Source: Macrolepiota albuminosa
Lineage: Eukaryota > Basidiomycota > Agaricomycetes > Agaricales > Agaricaceae
Length of the DNA: 64,000 bases
Direction: 5' to 3'
NCBI GenBank assembly: GCA_027475525.1
Contig: JAMWFC010000020.1
Span: forward strand, 62,001 to 126,000
In this document: piece after piece, positions 15,170-26,127 of the stretch
Layout: each line of letters begins with the position of its first letter
Numbering within the stretch: the first letter of the stretch is position 1
Made by a program: the position numbers and the translations under genes
Notes under the pieces: generated by a model
Seen by the model: only the letters and a program-made list of their open reading frames with translations
What the model was told of the DNA's origin: nothing
Database searches by the model: none

Positions 15170-18100
15170 ATAGCCCACCATGTGGCCGAATGGCAGGGCT
15201 TACTGATAATTTCGATTTAAATATGGACTCAATCATTTCTTTAAATAGTCAACAAGAATATTTTACACTAAAGTCGGAATTTAAGGCTGAAAAAGAGGAA
15301 AAAGAAATGACAATAGGAACAACAGGAGTGGGACAAACATCAGTAATGATCAAAGTAGAACTGCGGAGGTTGGATAACCGAGAAGCGCTGGAGGTTGATG
15401 GATTGTTAGACTCGGGAGCAACAAATATGTTTATTAATAAAGATTTTGCCCGAAGACATAACTTGCCCATCGAAAAACTACCACGGGCCATACCTGTATT
15501 CAACGTAGATGGGACAAAAAACATAAATGGGTCAATAACAGAGTTTGTTTCTTTAACAATGAGGCATAAAAACCATTCGGAGAAAGTTTATTTTTACGTT
15601 GCAAATATAGGAAAATCAAATATTATTATTGGGCATAACTGGCTTAAAAAACACAATCCTGAAATCAACTGGCAAACCGGAGAGGTAGTTTTAAACCGCT
15701 GCCCAAGCTCGTGTGGGAGAGGACGGATAGAAAAACTAAAAATGGAAGCAAAAGAGCGAAAACGCACGAAAAAAACAAAAAGAGGGGTGAAAACTGAGAA
15801 TATAGTAGGGGAAAATGAAATAACTGGCAAAGAGAAAAAATTCCGATGGGTAAAAGAGAATCATCAATACATACGATTTTTTAATCCTGAGGTTGGCTGC
15901 TTCGATGCATTATTTTTCGAAAAGAGCCGCATACCAAGACCTGCAGTACTCCGTATCAACGCAATGACTCATATATCTAAAAGAATTGCTCAGCGGGAAA
16001 ATGAACGGAAGCAGAAAGAATCAATTAAAGAAATGATTCCGGAACATTATTATACACCGTTTCGACCCGTTTTCGAGAAAGAAGGATTTAATGAACTACC
16101 CCCACGACGACCGTGGGATCATGCGATCGATATAATCCCAGACGCCAAGCCTAATAAACCTTCAAAAGTGTATCCACTGAGCCCATGTGAACAGAGAGAA
16201 CTGGATGAATTTCTTGATGAAAACTTAAGAAACGGACGGATTAGGGAATCTAAATCACCATGGGGATCAGGGTTCTTTTTTGTAAAGAAAAAGGATGGGA
16301 AATTGAGGCCTGTACAAGACTATCGGAAGCTAAATGCAGTTACGGTTAAAAATGTATACCCATTACCTCTCATTTCGGAAATCATTGGTAAACTGCGTCA
16401 CGCAAAGTATTTCTCCAAAATGGATGTCCGCTGGGGATTTAACAATATAAGGATTAGGGAGGGTGATGAGCATAAAGCAGCCTTTCTCACTAACCGAGGA
16501 CTATTCGAACCGACAGTTATGTTTTTTGGGCTATGCAATTCTCCGGCAACTTTTCAAACTATGATGAATAACCTGTTGAAGGAATTAATTCTCCGGGGAG
16601 TGGTAATGGTTTATATGGATGACATCCTTGTATACACCAAAACTTTGGCGGAGCATCGTAAAGTCGTACTTGAAGTGTTGGAAATTCTCGATCGAAATAA
16701 GTTATATTTGAAGCCTGAAAAATGCGAATTTGAAAAAACAGAGATTGAATATCTAGGGGTCGTAATCGGAGATGGCAAGGTAGCGATGGATCCGAGAAAA
16801 TTAGCAGCGATCCAAGATTGGCCAGCACCACGCACCGTCAAGCAGACACAATCGTTCTTGGGGTTTTGCAACTTCTACAGGAAATTTATTGAAGGGTTCG
16901 CTTCAATTGCACAGCCGCTTTATAACGTTACTAGAAAAAGCAATGGATTTAACTGGCCCGCATCATGCGACGACGCATTTCAGAACTTGAAGAACAAGCT
17001 GACCTCTTCCCCCGTGTTATCTCTTGCCACTGATGATGATCCATTTAAAATTGAAGCTGATGCCTCTGATTATGCATCCGGAGCTGTACTGTCACAGAAA
17101 ATAAATGACGAATGGCACCCTATAGCATACTATTCGAAAAGCTTTTCGGCAACAGAGAGGAACTATGAAGTACATGATAAGGAAATGTTAGCAATCATTA
17201 GGGCGTTAGAAGAATGGCGGCACCTGGTTCAAGGAAGTAAACATACGTTAGAGATCTGGACAGATCATAAAAATCTTGAGTACTTCTTGACGGCACAAAA
17301 ACTAAATAGACGGCAGGCACGATGGTCCGGATTACTTGCCGATTATGACTACACACTGAAACATAAACCAGGGAAAACGATGCTGAAACCCGATGCTCTA
17401 TCAAGAAGGCCAGACCATAAGCAGGGGGTAGAAAATGACAACAAAGATATCACCCTCGTATCGTCAGAACACATATCTATATTATATCTGCGGAGCGCAA
17501 TAACAATGAGCACCGAAGGAGACAGGATAATAGAACTGATAAAAGAAAAGGGAGAAATTTCCATCAACGAAAATGATAAAAATGCCGTGTGGGAAAAGGA
17601 AAATGGGCTGACATTTCGAAACGGACTTGTGGTGGTAATGGATAACGAGATCAAAAGAAAGATAGTCGAACTATATCACGATACGACAGTAGCAGGACAC
17701 CCAGGAAGAAATAAAACGAAAGAGTTGGTGCTGAGAAATTACTGGTGGCCCAAACTAACAGAGTACGTAAATAAGTATGTGGACGGATGTAGGAAGTGTC
17801 AACAAACGAAAGTATTCCCGCAGAAACCTCGTGGCTTCTTGTATCCGAACGCCATTCCCGATTACCCTTTCCAAATCATTTCTACTGACTTCATAACGGG
17901 TTTACCAACCTCATTAGGCTATGATGCAATAATGGTAGTAGTGGATCGATTCAGTAAACGAATATATACCATACCGTGTAACAAGGAAATTGACTCCGAA
18001 GGAGCAGCACGATTGTTCCGCGATCATATATGGCGTCACGAGGGTTTACCGCACACAGTGATTAGCGACAGGGGACCCCAATTTGCATCCGCGTTCACGA

Positions 18101-19026
18101 AAGACCTATACAAGTTGATGGGCATCGAGCGTAACTTATCAACGTCGCATCACGCACAGACTGACGGTCAGACGGAAAGAATCAATCAAGAAATTGAACA
18201 GTACCTGAGATTGTTTATCAACTACCGCATGGACGATTGGGCGGAATGGCTCCCTTGCGCGGAGTTTTGTTACAATAACCGTGTCTCAACTGCGACGGGC
18301 AATTCACCCTTTTTTATCACCAAGGGGCGTGAAGTTAACACCGGACTAGATCCAACTCCAAAAACCCGAAATCCAGAGGCTGCGGATGAGTTTGCATCGA
18401 GAATGAAGGGCATAAGGGACGAAACACGGGCCGCGTTGAAAGGAGCAGCGGATGATATGAAGCGCTTCTACGATCAGAAACACTCGTATGAGGAATACGA
18501 CGTAGGGGACATGGTCTGGTTAAACGCCGAGCATATATTCACCGGCAGACCGAAAAAGAAGTTAGATTGGAAAAATCTTGGACCATTTAAAATAATCAAA
18601 AAGTACTCACCGCACGCGTATGAATTAAAGTTGCCCAAATCATGGCGAATGCATCCTACGTTCAATATATCTAAGCTTAGGAGGTATAAACACGACGAAT
18701 TTAACCGACCAATACCACGTGTCACACTCAACGTCAGAGGAGAGAATTGGGAGCCCGAAAGAGTGATTGATTCACGACTGCGTAACAATAAGCTTGAGTA
18801 TCTCGTAACGTGGAAAAATCAAGCAACGTCGCGCGACACTTGGGAAAAGGAGTCTCGGATGCAAGACGAGGCACCCCGTTTGATCGTTGATTTCCATCGA
18901 CAAAACCCTGCGGCTGCACGTAGAATCACTTTCTTAGAATACAAATCTCTTCCTTTCGTACCGATCCCTGAACCACTTACTGAAGTATCGCCACCTAAAC
19001 ATGCTCGTTCGGAGTACTCGCCTTGA
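15166..19026 (+). CDS. E2 Pol (protease, RT, RNase H, integrase, chromodomain)
   Basis: An uninterrupted frame of about 1286 codons if entered by frameshift, or 1278 from the first ATG at 15190. Domains, numbered from that ATG: retropepsin LLDSGATNMF near 75; RT from about 330 with YMDDILVYT near 474; RNase H with IEADASDYASGAV near 620 and YEVHDKEMLAI; integrase zinc end with GHPGRNKTKELVLRNYWWP and CRKCQQTK near 835-880; core Asp residues in STDFITGLP and VISDRGPQF and Glu in DGQTERINQE; chromodomain LEYLVTWKNQATSRDTWEKE near 1200. All catalytic residues looked for are present. The order is that of chromoviruses (Ty3/gypsy). Confidence 0.95.
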   Translation, partial: LDSPPCGRMAGLTDNFDLNMDSIISLNSQQEYFTLKSEFKAEKEEKEMTIGTTGVGQTSVMIKVELRRLDNREALEVDGLLDSGATNMFINKDFARRHNLPIEKLPRAIPVFNVDGTKNINGSITEFVSLTMRHKNHSEKVYFYVANIGKSNIIIGHNWLKKHNPEINWQTGEVVLNRCPSSCGRGRIEKLKMEAKERKRTKKTKRGVKTENIVGENEITGKEKKFRWVKENHQYIRFFNPEVGCFDALFFEKSRIPRPAVLRINAMTHISKRIAQRENERKQKESIKEMIPEHYYTPFRPVFEKEGFNELPPRRPWDHAIDIIPDAKPNKPSKVYPLSPCEQRELDEFLDENLRNGRIRESKSPWGSGFFFVKKKDGKLRPVQDYRKLNAVTVKNVYPLPLISEIIGKLRHAKYFSKMDVRWGFNNIRIREGDEHKAAFLTNRGLFEPTVMFFGLCNSPATFQTMMNNLLKELILRGVVMVYMDDILVYTKTLAEHRKVVLEVLEILDRNKLYLKPEKCEFEKTEIEYLGVVIGDGKVAMDPRKLAAIQDWPAPRTVKQTQSFLGFCNFYRKFIEGFASIAQPLYNVTRKSNGFNWPASCDDAFQNLKNKLTSSPVLSLATDDDPFKIEADASDYASGAVLSQKINDEWHPIAYYSKSFSATERNYEVHDKEMLAIIRALEEWRHLVQGSKHTLEIWTDHKNLEYFLTAQKLNRRQARWSGLLADYDYTLKHKPGKTMLKPDALSRRPDHKQGVENDNKDITLVSSEHISILYLRSAITMSTEGDRIIELIKEKGEISINENDKNAVWEKENGLTFRNGLVVVMDNEIKRKIVELYHDTTVAGHPGRNKTKELVLRNYWWPKLTEYVNKYVDGCRKCQQTKVFPQKPRGFLYPNAIPDYPFQIISTDFITGLPTSLGYDAIMVVVDRFSKRIYTIPCNKEIDSEGAARLFRDHIWRHEGLPHTVISDRGPQFASAFTKDLYKLMGIERNLSTSHHAQTDGQTERINQEIEQYLRLFINYRMDDWAEWLPCAEFCYNNRVSTATGNSPFFITKGREVNTGLDPTPKTRNPEAADEFASRMKGIRDETRAALKGAADDMKRFYDQKHSYEEYDVGDMVWLNAEHIFTGRPKKKLDWKNLGPFKIIKKYSPHAYELKLPKSWRMHPTFNISKLRRYKHDEFNRPIPRVTLNVRGENWEPERVIDSRLRNNKLEYLVTWKNQATSRDTWEKESRMQDEAPRLIVDFHRQNPAAARRITFLEYKSLPFVPIPEPLTEVSPPKHARSEYSP

Positions 19027-21937: not shown

Positions 21938-22659
21938 CACATTAACGCTTACGAGTTACTCTTCGTACCGGAAGCTAGGAATCAGGATCAATTGAAATAC
22001 TTATGATAAAAACCGTGTGAAGTCCGTTCGTTTCAAGGTCCAGACCTGGTTCAAGTCATTGTTGGTGAAGTTCAGGTTTAAATTTGATCACTGTCCGCAT
22101 GAGTACAGTTCTTCATGTGTCATCAACGCAATGCAGCGAACAAATGGTCAATGCAGCACATTTCGGCCAAGTTTGAGCAGGCAGACCATCAAAACGCTTC
22201 CGAATCTTCATCCTGACACCAGTAGCAGGAGCTGAAATGCATGGAACAAGCATATCTGAACATGAAATGGCCACGAGGTTGTAGGATACTAGCAAAGTTT
22301 GCTCCGCGAACGTTCAGGGACTACGCCGTGTCACAGCTTGGAGGTGGACAATCGACGAATGCAAGAAGGGCAGACGGAGACTAGCAAAATAAAAGCAGAA
22401 ACCTTGAAGACAGATTTCAGATATCGGAGTCAAGAGACGCATTATCTTCTTCCCTTGAAGATAAAGACATCTTGGGGTCGAGCCCCCAAGAAGACACGTC
22501 CCTTCAGGCCTTACCTTCGGAGACGGCCCGGTCGCGCCGCACGTCTGGACGTAAGAAGCAGGTGTCCTTGGTAAGCTCACCAACGTGCAATGTCACGGGG
22601 CCGAAAAGTCTGCCTTGATGAAAAGTCATCGCAGCCGCGGGCCTCACGTCATAGTGGTG
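21938..22659. other. Gene-free stretch after the reductase
   Basis: No open frame with recognisable content. From about 22290 the base composition becomes GC-rich. A perfect inverted repeat, CTTGGGG (22471-22477) and CCCCAAG (22484-22490), lies here. This may belong to the structured non-coding interval that contains the hammerhead motif. Confidence 0.4.
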
Positions 22660-23042
22660 GGGTCCTATACTGGCAGGGGGCATTAGCCAGGGCGTTAACC
22701 CACTATACTGTACTACCCACCTGTTCGGGGTCCCGGTCCTGCCGGTAGCGGCCAGGTGCGCCCGTCATACTCCCCTCAGTCACCTGGGTAGACACGTGGC
22801 ATAGGTTGTAGTGTGACAAAGGTCCACACTATAGTAACCTGAGACGGATTAGGGCAGCGGTTAAGTCCTCTGACGAGCCCCTTCGCAAGGGCGAAATCCG
22901 TGCAAGACCCGACCGCTTTCTCGCACTCGGATATAACCGTTATGTCGGCGATTTCCGATTTCCTCAAAGCTGGGATACCTTTCTTACATGACCCAGTTGC
23001 AGACTGGGCCTAATTGTCTCTGAGTCGTGTTTTTTGTTTTTC
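22660..23042 (+). other. Structured GC-rich non-coding interval around the hammerhead
   Basis: No coding sequence. In order: a weak A-box-like word TAGCCAGGGCG near 22684, a weak B-box-like word TGTTCGGGGTCC near 22722, the hammerhead (22844-22901), a stem-loop CCCAGT/ACTGGG (22992-22997 and 23003-23008), and T-runs from 23030. The order would suit a small polymerase III transcript or SINE-like unit ending at the T-run, but the promoter matches are poor and no second copy or flanking duplication was seen. Confidence 0.3.
22844..22901 (+). ncRNA. Type III hammerhead ribozyme motif
   Basis: All core elements are in the right order. Stem III is ACGGA (22844-22848) with TCCGT (22897-22901), closed by U 22849 and A 22896. 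The cleavage nucleotide is U 22850. Stem I is AGGGC (22851-22855) with GTCCT (22865-22869), loop AGCGGTTAA. Then come CTGACGA (22870-22876), stem II GCCCCTTCGCAAGGGC (22877-22892, one bulged C, loop CGC) and GAAA (22893-22896). Stem III is the open one, so the topology is type III, as in plant viroid-like RNAs and retrozymes. Cleavage is predicted after 22850. The AUU site is permitted by the NUH rule but is less usual than GUC. No protein gene overlaps it. Confidence 0.8.
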
Positions 23043-24182
23043 CTTCATTTTTGTGAGATCAAAGGAGAACTTTGGATTCCTGTTCAGAAGTACGCAGATG
23101 ATGTACCAGTTAATAATTCTTTTAAGCTGAGACATCGCTGGTTCTGGGATGAAATGATTTAGTTGACATCATCACATTTCCAGTACAGGTTAACTTTGCT
23201 TGTATGTCCTTTTGGTTTCGAGACCAGTTCGCTATTGTAAATGTCATCTTTCTTGAAATTTGTGCTCAACCGATCTAGTTTTCTACGCAATATGAGGCAC
23301 TAGCTTCAGGTTCGGAGCTTGAGAAACGATATATTCCCCTTCCCGTGGGCCGGCTTCCGCATTTTGTTGATATCCTTCAATTTTTGGGTGCTCCATCACA
23401 AAGAACATGCATGTAACAGATACTTAGATTTTCCAGCGGTGAATGACATACAATTTTGTGCAAAGCGTAATCTCAATTTCCATGAGGTGACTCGTCGTTG
23501 ACCTGGCTTCTGAAGTATGTGGAGCTTTACCTAACGATTGACTCTTGACCACACTAAGATCGCGAGAAACTGAGACATGAGTCGATTTGAAGTATGTGGA
23601 GCTTTACCTAACGATTGACTCTTGACCACACTAAGATCGCGAGAAACTGAGACATGAGTCGATTACAATTCAGTTAATGAAGGGAGAGTGCAGCCGCACT
23701 CTCTAGCTTTAAGTCACATTTTCTTCATAGCATCTGATGTCATGAAGTTGAACACACGGACGACAATGGACGAACGGGAAACACTCCTATGATCTATATC
23801 TTTGATAATTGATATTCATAAGACAGCAATCGATCTAGGACCTAGCCACTGGTTGAGGTATCGGCATGTGAGGGGGAGAAACCTCCTGAAATACGCGTTT
23901 GGAGCAGTTGGATTGAAGCATTTCAATTCATACGCGCAAAGTCCAGAAACATTTGTGACTGACATAGATGAATTCGATATGAGAAAGTGATCAGCGGTGT
24001 CAAACGAACAAGTTGGTTAAGGAAAAAAGATAGGGGGAATTGAGAAACTTTCGACTTTATCGAAAAGACACTGTCGTTCAACACCGACAAAGATGGCCTG
24101 TACATGCATCGATGCTGTTTTTCCATGTAGAATCCTTCATAGAGAGCTTCCGGGCGAAAATCAGTACGAGAGCCTCGACAGC
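23043..24182. other. Gene-free stretch with a 77-bp duplication
   Basis: Apart from the tandem duplication at 23511-23664 nothing specific is seen. Open frames (for example 23319-23501 and 23802-23990) are short and domain-less. Confidence 0.5.
23511..23664. repeat. Exact 77-bp tandem duplication (likely assembly artefact)
   Basis: Copies 23511-23587 and 23588-23664 read as identical and abut without a spacer. The period equals that of five other duplications in this window, which points to an uncollapsed k-mer overlap. Confidence 0.9.
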
Positions 24183-25011: not shown

Positions 25012-26127
25012 ATGATTTCACCGCCTACTTTTCAACTTCCACCAATTCGCGGAATTGCATCGCATCCTGTCCACGATCTTAAGGAAGCGTTATTATATCT
25101 GCGTCATTTATATAATCCTCAAGTACAAGGTTCCCGTCGATGTCAGCGAGAACTACCCTCTACGCAAGTCGACATCATAAACGGGCTCGACGAACTGCGA
25201 TCAGACACCTTTGAGCGATCCTATGCCATGAGATGGCTAACTTCTCTGGTGTCTCTAACCGCTGATTGGGACTCCGGGCTCACCTCAGACGCAAGCCATT
25301 CGAAGGAATGGGAGGACCTTGTTCAAGAAGCAGCATCACTGCTGGCAGTATGCTCTGGAACCGCCGGCGCTGGGGTGGTTGTGCGAGATTTTGTATTCAA
25401 GCTTAGATCGGAGACAGATCAGCCGTTCAAGATCCAGGTCAAGGACATTTCTCTTGATAACAAGGACTATGGAAGCGTTGGAGCGCAGACATGGGGCGGT
25501 GCATGTGTCCTCGCCGAAACGATCCTTGATGATCCCGTATCCTTCGGATTATCCGAAATGAGCGAGTTGCGCATCTTGGAGCTTGGGGCTGGCACTGGTC
25601 TTGTCAGCCTAGCGTTGGAAAAACTGTTTGAAAGCGCAGGTTCTTTGGTTCCGTCGAGGACTATCGTAGCGACAGATTATTACCCATCAGTGATGGAGAA
25701 TCTTGCTTCAAATATACAAACAAATTTTCCGGGTTCAAATGCCATCCAAGCTTGTTTCCTTGATTGGTCGTCATTCCCCAACGAGGCTGTGGTTCCGCCG
25801 TTTGATGCACCTTTCGACCTTGTTTTAGGCGCAGACATTATATATGAAGTTCAGCATGCCATCTGGATCAAATCGTGCCTTGCAAGGCTCCTTCGAAAAC
25901 CAACCTTATCGCAAGATCCGCTATTTCACTTGATGATCCCTCTTCGGCCCACACATTCTTTTGAATCCAGCACCATTGATAGCGTTTTTTCTGCATCAAA
26001 TCCAGGTGGTAACCCTGACGAGTTACATTTGGTTATAATTTCAAGAGAGTCATTACTTTGCTATGCAGCACCAGGCAGCGGACAAGATCAAATCGAGTAT
26101 GCATATTATAGGATTGGGTGGCGTTGA
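25012..26127 (+). CDS. Lysine methyltransferase-like protein (METTL21/FAM86 type)
   Basis: An intronless 371-aa frame. The second half is an S-adenosylmethionine-dependent methyltransferase: VGAQTWGGACVLAETIL around residue 155, the SAM-binding motif LELGAGTGLVSLAL near 188, an acidic strand end IVATDYYPS near 220, and LVLGADIIYE, the DxxY-type motif typical of METTL21 and FAM86/EFM3 lysine methyltransferases. The N-terminal 150 residues are helical and suit the substrate-recognition part of FAM86-like enzymes, which methylate elongation factor 2; that substrate is inferred, not shown. The start is the first ATG (MISPPTFQLPP). Intact and likely cytosolic, with no signal peptide or membrane segment. 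Transcribed divergently from the coiled-coil gene. Confidence 0.88.
   Translation: MISPPTFQLPPIRGIASHPVHDLKEALLYLRHLYNPQVQGSRRCQRELPSTQVDIINGLDELRSDTFERSYAMRWLTSLVSLTADWDSGLTSDASHSKEWEDLVQEAASLLAVCSGTAGAGVVVRDFVFKLRSETDQPFKIQVKDISLDNKDYGSVGAQTWGGACVLAETILDDPVSFGLSEMSELRILELGAGTGLVSLALEKLFESAGSLVPSRTIVATDYYPSVMENLASNIQTNFPGSNAIQACFLDWSSFPNEAVVPPFDAPFDLVLGADIIYEVQHAIWIKSCLARLLRKPTLSQDPLFHLMIPLRPTHSFESSTIDSVFSASNPGGNPDELHLVIISRESLLCYAAPGSGQDQIEYAYYRIGWR

Follow-up and report, generated by a model that had tools for sequence, protein, structure and literature searches.

Within the window, by which we mean the whole 64-kb stretch of DNA analysed, a short dispersed repeat carrying a type III hammerhead ribozyme motif lies on the forward strand at 22470–22918. 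Its surroundings include a methyltransferase gene at 25012–26127 and, as the nearest transposon looked at, a chromodomain Ty3 element at 15190–19026, whose uninterrupted 1278-aa polyprotein contains protease, RT, RNase H, integrase, and chromodomain domains. The best named relative of the methyltransferase is from Termitomyces, at 75% along its entire length; next come Tephrocybe, Tricholoma, Lyophyllum, and others, relatives that presumably place the host in or near the Lyophyllaceae. Downstream of the element, at approximately 23512–23665, a stretch of ∼77 bp (GAAGTATGTGGAGCTTTACC...) was seen by eye to occur twice in tandem. The features of the element and its ribozyme are as follows.

22470–22918, forward strand: whole repeat element, window copy; homology between unrelated loci ends here, and empty sites of other copies give the same ends
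22470–22491, forward strand: 5′ terminal hairpin of 22 nt, present in 17 of the 20 aligned family rows
22844–22901, forward strand: type III hammerhead ribozyme; descriptor match, recovered by the consensus fold, 96.9% of 194 pair cells standard in an alignment of 13 rows
22844–22849 with 22896–22901, forward strand: stem III, read directly from the sequence, with U16.1 at 22849 and A15.1 at 22896
22850–22851, forward strand: self-cleavage site predicted from the sequence, after H17 = T22850 (U22850 in RNA)
22851–22869, forward strand: stem I with 9-nt loop AGCGGTTAA; 22851–22855 pairs with 22865–22869 (5 bp, one G-U)
22870–22876, forward strand: core CUGANGA, here CTGACGA, from the descriptor and comparison of copies
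22877–22892, forward strand: stem II with 8-nt loop; 22877–22880 pairs with 22889–22892
22893–22895, forward strand: GAA of the core, read directly from the sequence
22902–22918, forward strand: 3′ tail after the ribozyme, ending AAGACCCRACCRCTY in the sub-family of the window copy and AAGACCCACGT in the other

The preliminary description had placed three stems and every core base of a hammerhead at 22844–22901, and direct reading of the sequence confirmed this. CUGANGA, GAA, the A15.1–U16.1 pair, and an H17 other than G are all present in the window copy, and both the alignment and the consensus fold close stems I and II and leave stem III open, the arrangement that defines type III. A strict structural descriptor, comprising the core, NUH, and the three stems, was run over both strands of the 64-kb window. 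The motif was its single match, and no match was obtained in 60 dinucleotide shuffles. The loose string CTGANGA...CGAAA, taken without stems, is not rare, with two occurrences in the window against 0.94 expected. Judging from the loop sequences, a 4-bp kissing contact (GCGG/UCGC) between loop II and loop I is possible, all four pairs being available in 12 of 17 copies; pseudoknots of this kind were reported by Perreault et al. in about 40% of hammerheads (PMC3088659).

The preliminary description had also proposed a covariance-model check, with a score below threshold as grounds for refutation, and it is a score below threshold that was obtained. RF00008 (Hammerhead_3) gave the window motif 17.0 bits against a gathering threshold of 48.5 (E 3.5), and nothing in the Rfam scan of the 64-kb window reached gathering for any family. 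The RF00008 alignment spans 22856–22902 and draws the 5′ strands of stems III and I from bases other than 22844–22855, agreeing with the motif layout for the core and stem II only. When seven other loci were scanned, RF00008 matched five of them on the correct strand and in the correct place at 19.0–21.5 bits, all sub-threshold, and missed L056 and L058, two decayed copies; seven further sub-threshold families (miRNA, snoRNA, and lncRNA) in the same scan were read as chance. Because all RF00008 scores fell below gathering, the element is not filed as a member of that family. A genome-wide RF00008 search returned no match, nor did it return any in its 14 control genomes, so that this result is not evidence of absence. 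In our view, the conservation of the core in related copies, described below, outweighs the sub-threshold Rfam score.

Further copies in the same genome (100.1 Mb, 129 contigs), which the preliminary description had suggested looking for, were found, with the hammerhead conserved among them. Using 22400–23100 as the query, the first genome search returned 19 places, 17 of which are separate element copies; the other two are one downstream flank piece and one second piece of an already counted copy. A 30-nt core pattern allowing up to three mismatches found 17 places, and its reversed control found 0. Searches with the window query and two other copies, merged by hand, give a family of at least 23 loci. 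Four pairs of loci are duplicated regions (L044/L045, identical over 9.8 kb; L046/L047; L040/L041; and the window with L037), and 19 non-redundant loci remain after these are merged. L037 (C11) is ∼97% identical to the window region and has about 5 kb of other sequence immediately downstream of the element.

The copies are dispersed, and unrelated loci share nothing outside the element over 5 kb on each side, other repeats excepted. No tandem arrangement or LTR pair of copies was found among the loci compared, and a genome search for unit-unit junctions (tolerating up to three mismatches in sub-family 2 and requiring exact identity in sub-family 1) found none. One copy (C107) is split by a Ty3 element related to that of the window (about 72% DNA identity over 2 kb), and another (C24), judging from adjacent same-strand pieces, is probably split by 31 kb. 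The ribozyme had been considered as part of a Ty3 LTR at L053; this was rejected, the Ty3 being inserted in the element instead.

The element is about 465 nt in length (compared members about 420–485 nt, window copy ∼450 nt), and its GC content is 0.52–0.59 in six copies. It is treated here as non-coding, no coding frame being claimed. A GC-rich interval with further hairpins around the motif had been noted in the preliminary description; it is present and turns out to be the remainder of the repeat element. The window copy starts TCT (22470) and finishes CCCGACCGCTT (22918), and the last ∼75 nt of the element consist of the hammerhead and a short tail. Two sub-families could be distinguished, differing at both ends and through the body. 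The ends are TCT..CGT or TCT..CTY, with 3′ ends CACGT or RCTY (RCTY in all four independent copies of sub-family 1), and not TG..CA. The same ends were found at all 13 loci where both were examined, and the 5′ end is kept in 17 of 20 rows.

The 5′ hairpin has a TTCRAGY-like loop, which we take to be a T-loop or pol III B-box-like motif. Its pair 4 is T-A in five rows and G-C in 12, and its pair 5 is a non-standard C.A in eight of 17 rows, which counts against the hairpin. Overall, the element does not fold with unusual stability (z −0.2 to −2.1, forward strand, six copies), and the values (z near 0 to −2) do not support a viroid-like rod. In the body of the element, most two-sided changes of pairs run from C-G to U-A or from G-C to A-U; CpG decay can mimic such changes, and they are therefore not relied on as evidence. 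Strong C-to-T/G-to-A decay, as expected from cytosine methylation of repeats, was seen by eye in L055, L056, and L058.

Between the sub-families (four versus nine copies), the catalytic 35-nt window (CUGANGA, stem II, and GAAA) has an identity of 0.91, against 0.31–0.73 for the 13 other 35-nt windows. This comparison shows the predicted cutting core to be the best-kept part of the repeat between sub-families, and thus preferentially conserved. The ribozyme region is kept in 17 of the 19 non-redundant loci, with the core intact in nine of these 17. Eleven core changes are spread over the remaining eight, namely G12 to A in six copies (CpG), G8 to A in three, and an altered A15.1 in two. Six of the 11 are thus CpG-type, and the five that are not are counted against the ribozyme. 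At H17, all 17 copies have T or C (C in L044) and none has G; stem III of L055 lacks its 3′ strand. The ribozyme region is absent from three of 20 alignment rows, one of which is the 5′ half of a split copy.

Pair 16.2/15.2 of the ribozyme is U-A in eight of the 13 rows and A-U in five. Two-sided change is confined to 2 of 15 ribozyme pairs, the second resting on one compensated row, and this number of pairs is not above chance (matched by 189 of 500 shuffles). The number of cells with two-sided change is high (2 of 500 shuffles), as is the covariation score (0 of 500). RNAalifold recovered the hammerhead unprompted, together with one additional U17–A14 pair.

Empty sites were sought with a query of joined flanks, and paralogous unoccupied sites were obtained for L042, L043, L047, L049, and L051. 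In the empty site of L043 the left flank runs straight into the right flank, and for L049 there are three separate empty paralogues in which left and right flanks are directly joined. The flanks are also joined in the L042 empty site (95% identity), where ACTT could be part of either the element end or the target, and the L047 empty site agrees within one base at 84% identity. L051 lies in a tandem array; one of the four other units shown is a gapless empty site, GTCC^TCTCACC, and the other three are a few bases shorter. The bases at the insertion point are G^A (L043), A^C (L049), A^A (L042), C^T (L051), and G^T (L047). No target-site duplication is visible at the empty sites of these five copies, which are clean to within a few ambiguous bases.

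Across the flanks of 13 loci, a duplication of at least 4 bp at one shared offset was not seen in two or more of them. Direct repeats of at least 4 bp near the ends occur at 3 of the 13 loci (L039; L040, partly inside the element; and L054), compared with 55 of 156 when flanks were swapped between loci, so there is no excess. The longest near-end repeat is AATTAT (6 bp), two bases off each end of L054. Farther-out matches, TCTCACC at L051 and TTTTGCA at L050 (each lying 11 bases from the 5′ end), were set aside; TCTCACC falls in the gapless empty site of the array unit. As a positive control, the Ty3 interrupting the C107 copy has the 5-bp CTATG on both sides. Compared across loci and empty sites, these sequences show dispersal to unrelated sites with fixed ends and insertion without target duplication, and such insertion fits none of the mobilisers considered. 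Among these, Helitrons insert between A and T and have 5′ TC and 3′ CTRR; a Helitron was rejected on the insertion points listed above and on the 3′ ends CACGT or RCTY.

Three old decayed copies (L055, L056, and L058/L059) lie at one identical point of another repeat family, AAAACAC^TGTAAAAATAA, of which many copies exist in the form without the hammerhead element, and this suggests a single insertion into that repeat that later multiplied with it. A LINE tail following the element in L055, L056, and L058 was considered and rejected, the sequence being that of another repeat family containing the element. This other repeat family is abundant and starts CACTGGGTGCAGGGAATGATATT (L062–L064; also L055, L056, and L058/L059), with at least 56 matches to its 3′ part; in three decayed copies the hammerhead element sits within it at a single position. 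Beyond the composite repeat, the 3′ end of the L055 locus holds a stretch that by eye resembles a tRNA (GGTGTAGTGGTA...GGATTCAAACTGC), a possible tRNA-derived SINE.

Taken together, we think it rather probable that 22844–22901 is a probably active type III hammerhead and that it belongs to a mobile element that is small, non-coding, and non-autonomous. This element, about 465 nt in length and present at 23 loci or more, resides in an Agaricales fungus close to Termitomyces. The reading given in the preliminary description is partly supported. From the sequence, transcripts of the element would cut themselves co-transcriptionally at U22850/A22851. A unit-length RNA, probably circular by retrozyme precedent (PMC4918200, PMC7229834), may then serve as template for a borrowed enzyme that starts reverse transcription at a fixed point, and the resulting copy would be inserted without target duplication. 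Because genomic copies carry sequence on either side of the cut, the template would have to be uncut, or religated after cutting. For a circle, RNA-level multimers or other end-joining would be needed because single-copy loci give no dimeric transcript. With no unit-unit junction in the genome, no DNA template is seen for a circle-yielding dimeric transcript, and this is counted against the proposal. More tentatively, and with appreciable doubt, we suggest that the ∼465-nt non-coding element, with its fixed ends and type III hammerhead, represents a distinct mobile RNA class of mushroom-type fungi, which would spread as a unit-length (probably circularised) RNA and insert bluntly, with no target-site duplication and no fixed target, by a route unlike that of LTR elements, LINEs, Helitrons, or known retrozymes.

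In the main rival, a LINE copies a SINE-like element by target-primed reverse transcription, the second cut falling opposite the first and leaving no duplication, and the hammerhead trims the transcript. The repeat is non-coding and dispersed and begins with a B-box-like hairpin in 17 of 20 rows; the RCTY ends of sub-family 1 (four of four copies) and the ACTT of the L042 empty target could be 3′ microhomology, and AATTAT off each end of L054 is possibly a short duplication. Yet no A box, poly-A, or simple tail was seen by eye, and the target-site duplication of a tRNA-derived SINE was not found, the only locus with a 6-bp repeat close to its two ends being L054. Truncation at the 5′ end is common among LINE products, whereas the 5′ end is retained in 17 of 20 rows here, and the 3′ sequence following the three old copies belongs to another repeat family enclosing the element and is not a tail of its own. 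On this evidence, we regard LINE-dependent copying as unlikely.

It is quite doubtful that the copies are DNA forms of an RNA-replicating viroid-like circular RNA that was repeatedly endogenised. Size, ribozyme type, and single-unit copies would all fit, and viroid-like RNAs have been reported from fungi (PMC13343976), but varied opening points would be expected, and the 13 loci with both ends examined have identical ends. In addition, Rfam scans of the window's element and seven loci showed no minus-strand ribozyme, and neither of two exact core patterns matched viral contigs. An exact core search of prokaryote genomes gave no match either.

An origin as solo LTRs, left by a plant-type LTR retrozyme that local Ty3 elements mobilised, is already disfavoured and in our judgement very unlikely. 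Such an origin would suit the type III hammerhead, the GC content of 0.52–0.59 in six copies, and the presence of Ty3 both nearby (15190–19026) and inside one copy, and in Jatropha single hammerheads are described as mostly solo LTRs (PMC4918200). It would not suit the near-end repeats (3 of 13 loci versus 55 of 156 with swapped flanks), the lack of duplication at five empty sites where a Ty3 of the same genome leaves CTATG twice, or ends other than TG..CA; nor do any two copies make up an LTR element, and no unit junction was found. Neither two hammerhead LTRs around a non-coding centre nor a 4-bp target-site duplication was seen, and the copies hold no internal region between LTRs where a PBS or PPT could lie. 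Because of these LTR and target-site results, the element is not filed as a retrozyme. Finally, a chance hammerhead look-alike within an ordinary GC-rich repeat, never active, would explain the sub-threshold RF00008 score and the core changes in eight of 17 copies but is highly improbable beside 0 matches in 60 shuffled windows, a core that is the most conserved part between sub-families, and nine of 17 copies intact.

Genomic self-cleaving ribozymes are best understood from plant and animal retrozymes. The mobile element favoured here, a fungal dispersed repeat with a type III hammerhead and recoverable empty sites, offers a tractable system for the role of the ribozyme in mobile RNA and lets one ask if retrozyme-like propagation occurs in fungi; its duplication-free insertion opens the integration step to experiment.

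Hammerheads in fungi are already in print, and the statement in the preliminary description that one would be unusual in an Agaricomycete was overstated. In Yarrowia lipolytica, hammerheads in interspersed repeats were reported in 2011 (PMC3088659). Those repeats are likewise fungal, interspersed, and multi-copy but belong to a distant yeast, and the comparison is by description only, the element structure not being given in that account. For Pleurotus ostreatus, five RF00008 matches were reported in 2016, described as type III with three of the five on one scaffold (PMC5040776), and a 2022 Agaricomycete transcriptome study filtered out structural RNA transcripts, “Hammerhead ribozymes” identified by Rfam among them (PMC8893723), which suggests that Agaricomycete hammerhead RNAs can be transcribed. 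These two cases share the Agaricomycete setting, but as presented in those reports the Rfam matches are merely listed or filtered, with no repeat family. Among the publications listed by the literature searches, none was found to describe a type III hammerhead repeat family from a fungus.

Of the non-coding elements known from fungi, Helenus TRIMs are similarly short and have a tRNA-like promoter sequence; they are described with two LTRs, A and B boxes, a 5-bp target-site duplication, and no ribozyme, whereas the present element has a hammerhead and only a B-box-like loop (PMC10886601). Metazoan non-LTR retrozymes are, like this element, small hammerhead repeats without LTRs, but in the published account they are type I, tandem, and low in GC, with target-site duplications of more than 4 bp when present, in contrast to the type III, monomeric copies without duplication found here (PMC7229834). 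Plant LTR retrozymes, as described by Cervera, Urbina and de la Pena in 2016 (PMC4918200), differ in that no LTR pair, no 4-bp target-site duplication, and no two-hammerhead locus is seen here, and in that the ends are different; nor is a PBS or PPT seen, the copies having no internal region between LTRs. They are alike in being non-coding, non-autonomous, dispersed, and equipped with a type III hammerhead, and solo-LTR copies with a single hammerhead are known among them. By analogy with these systems, the element may work like a retrozyme.
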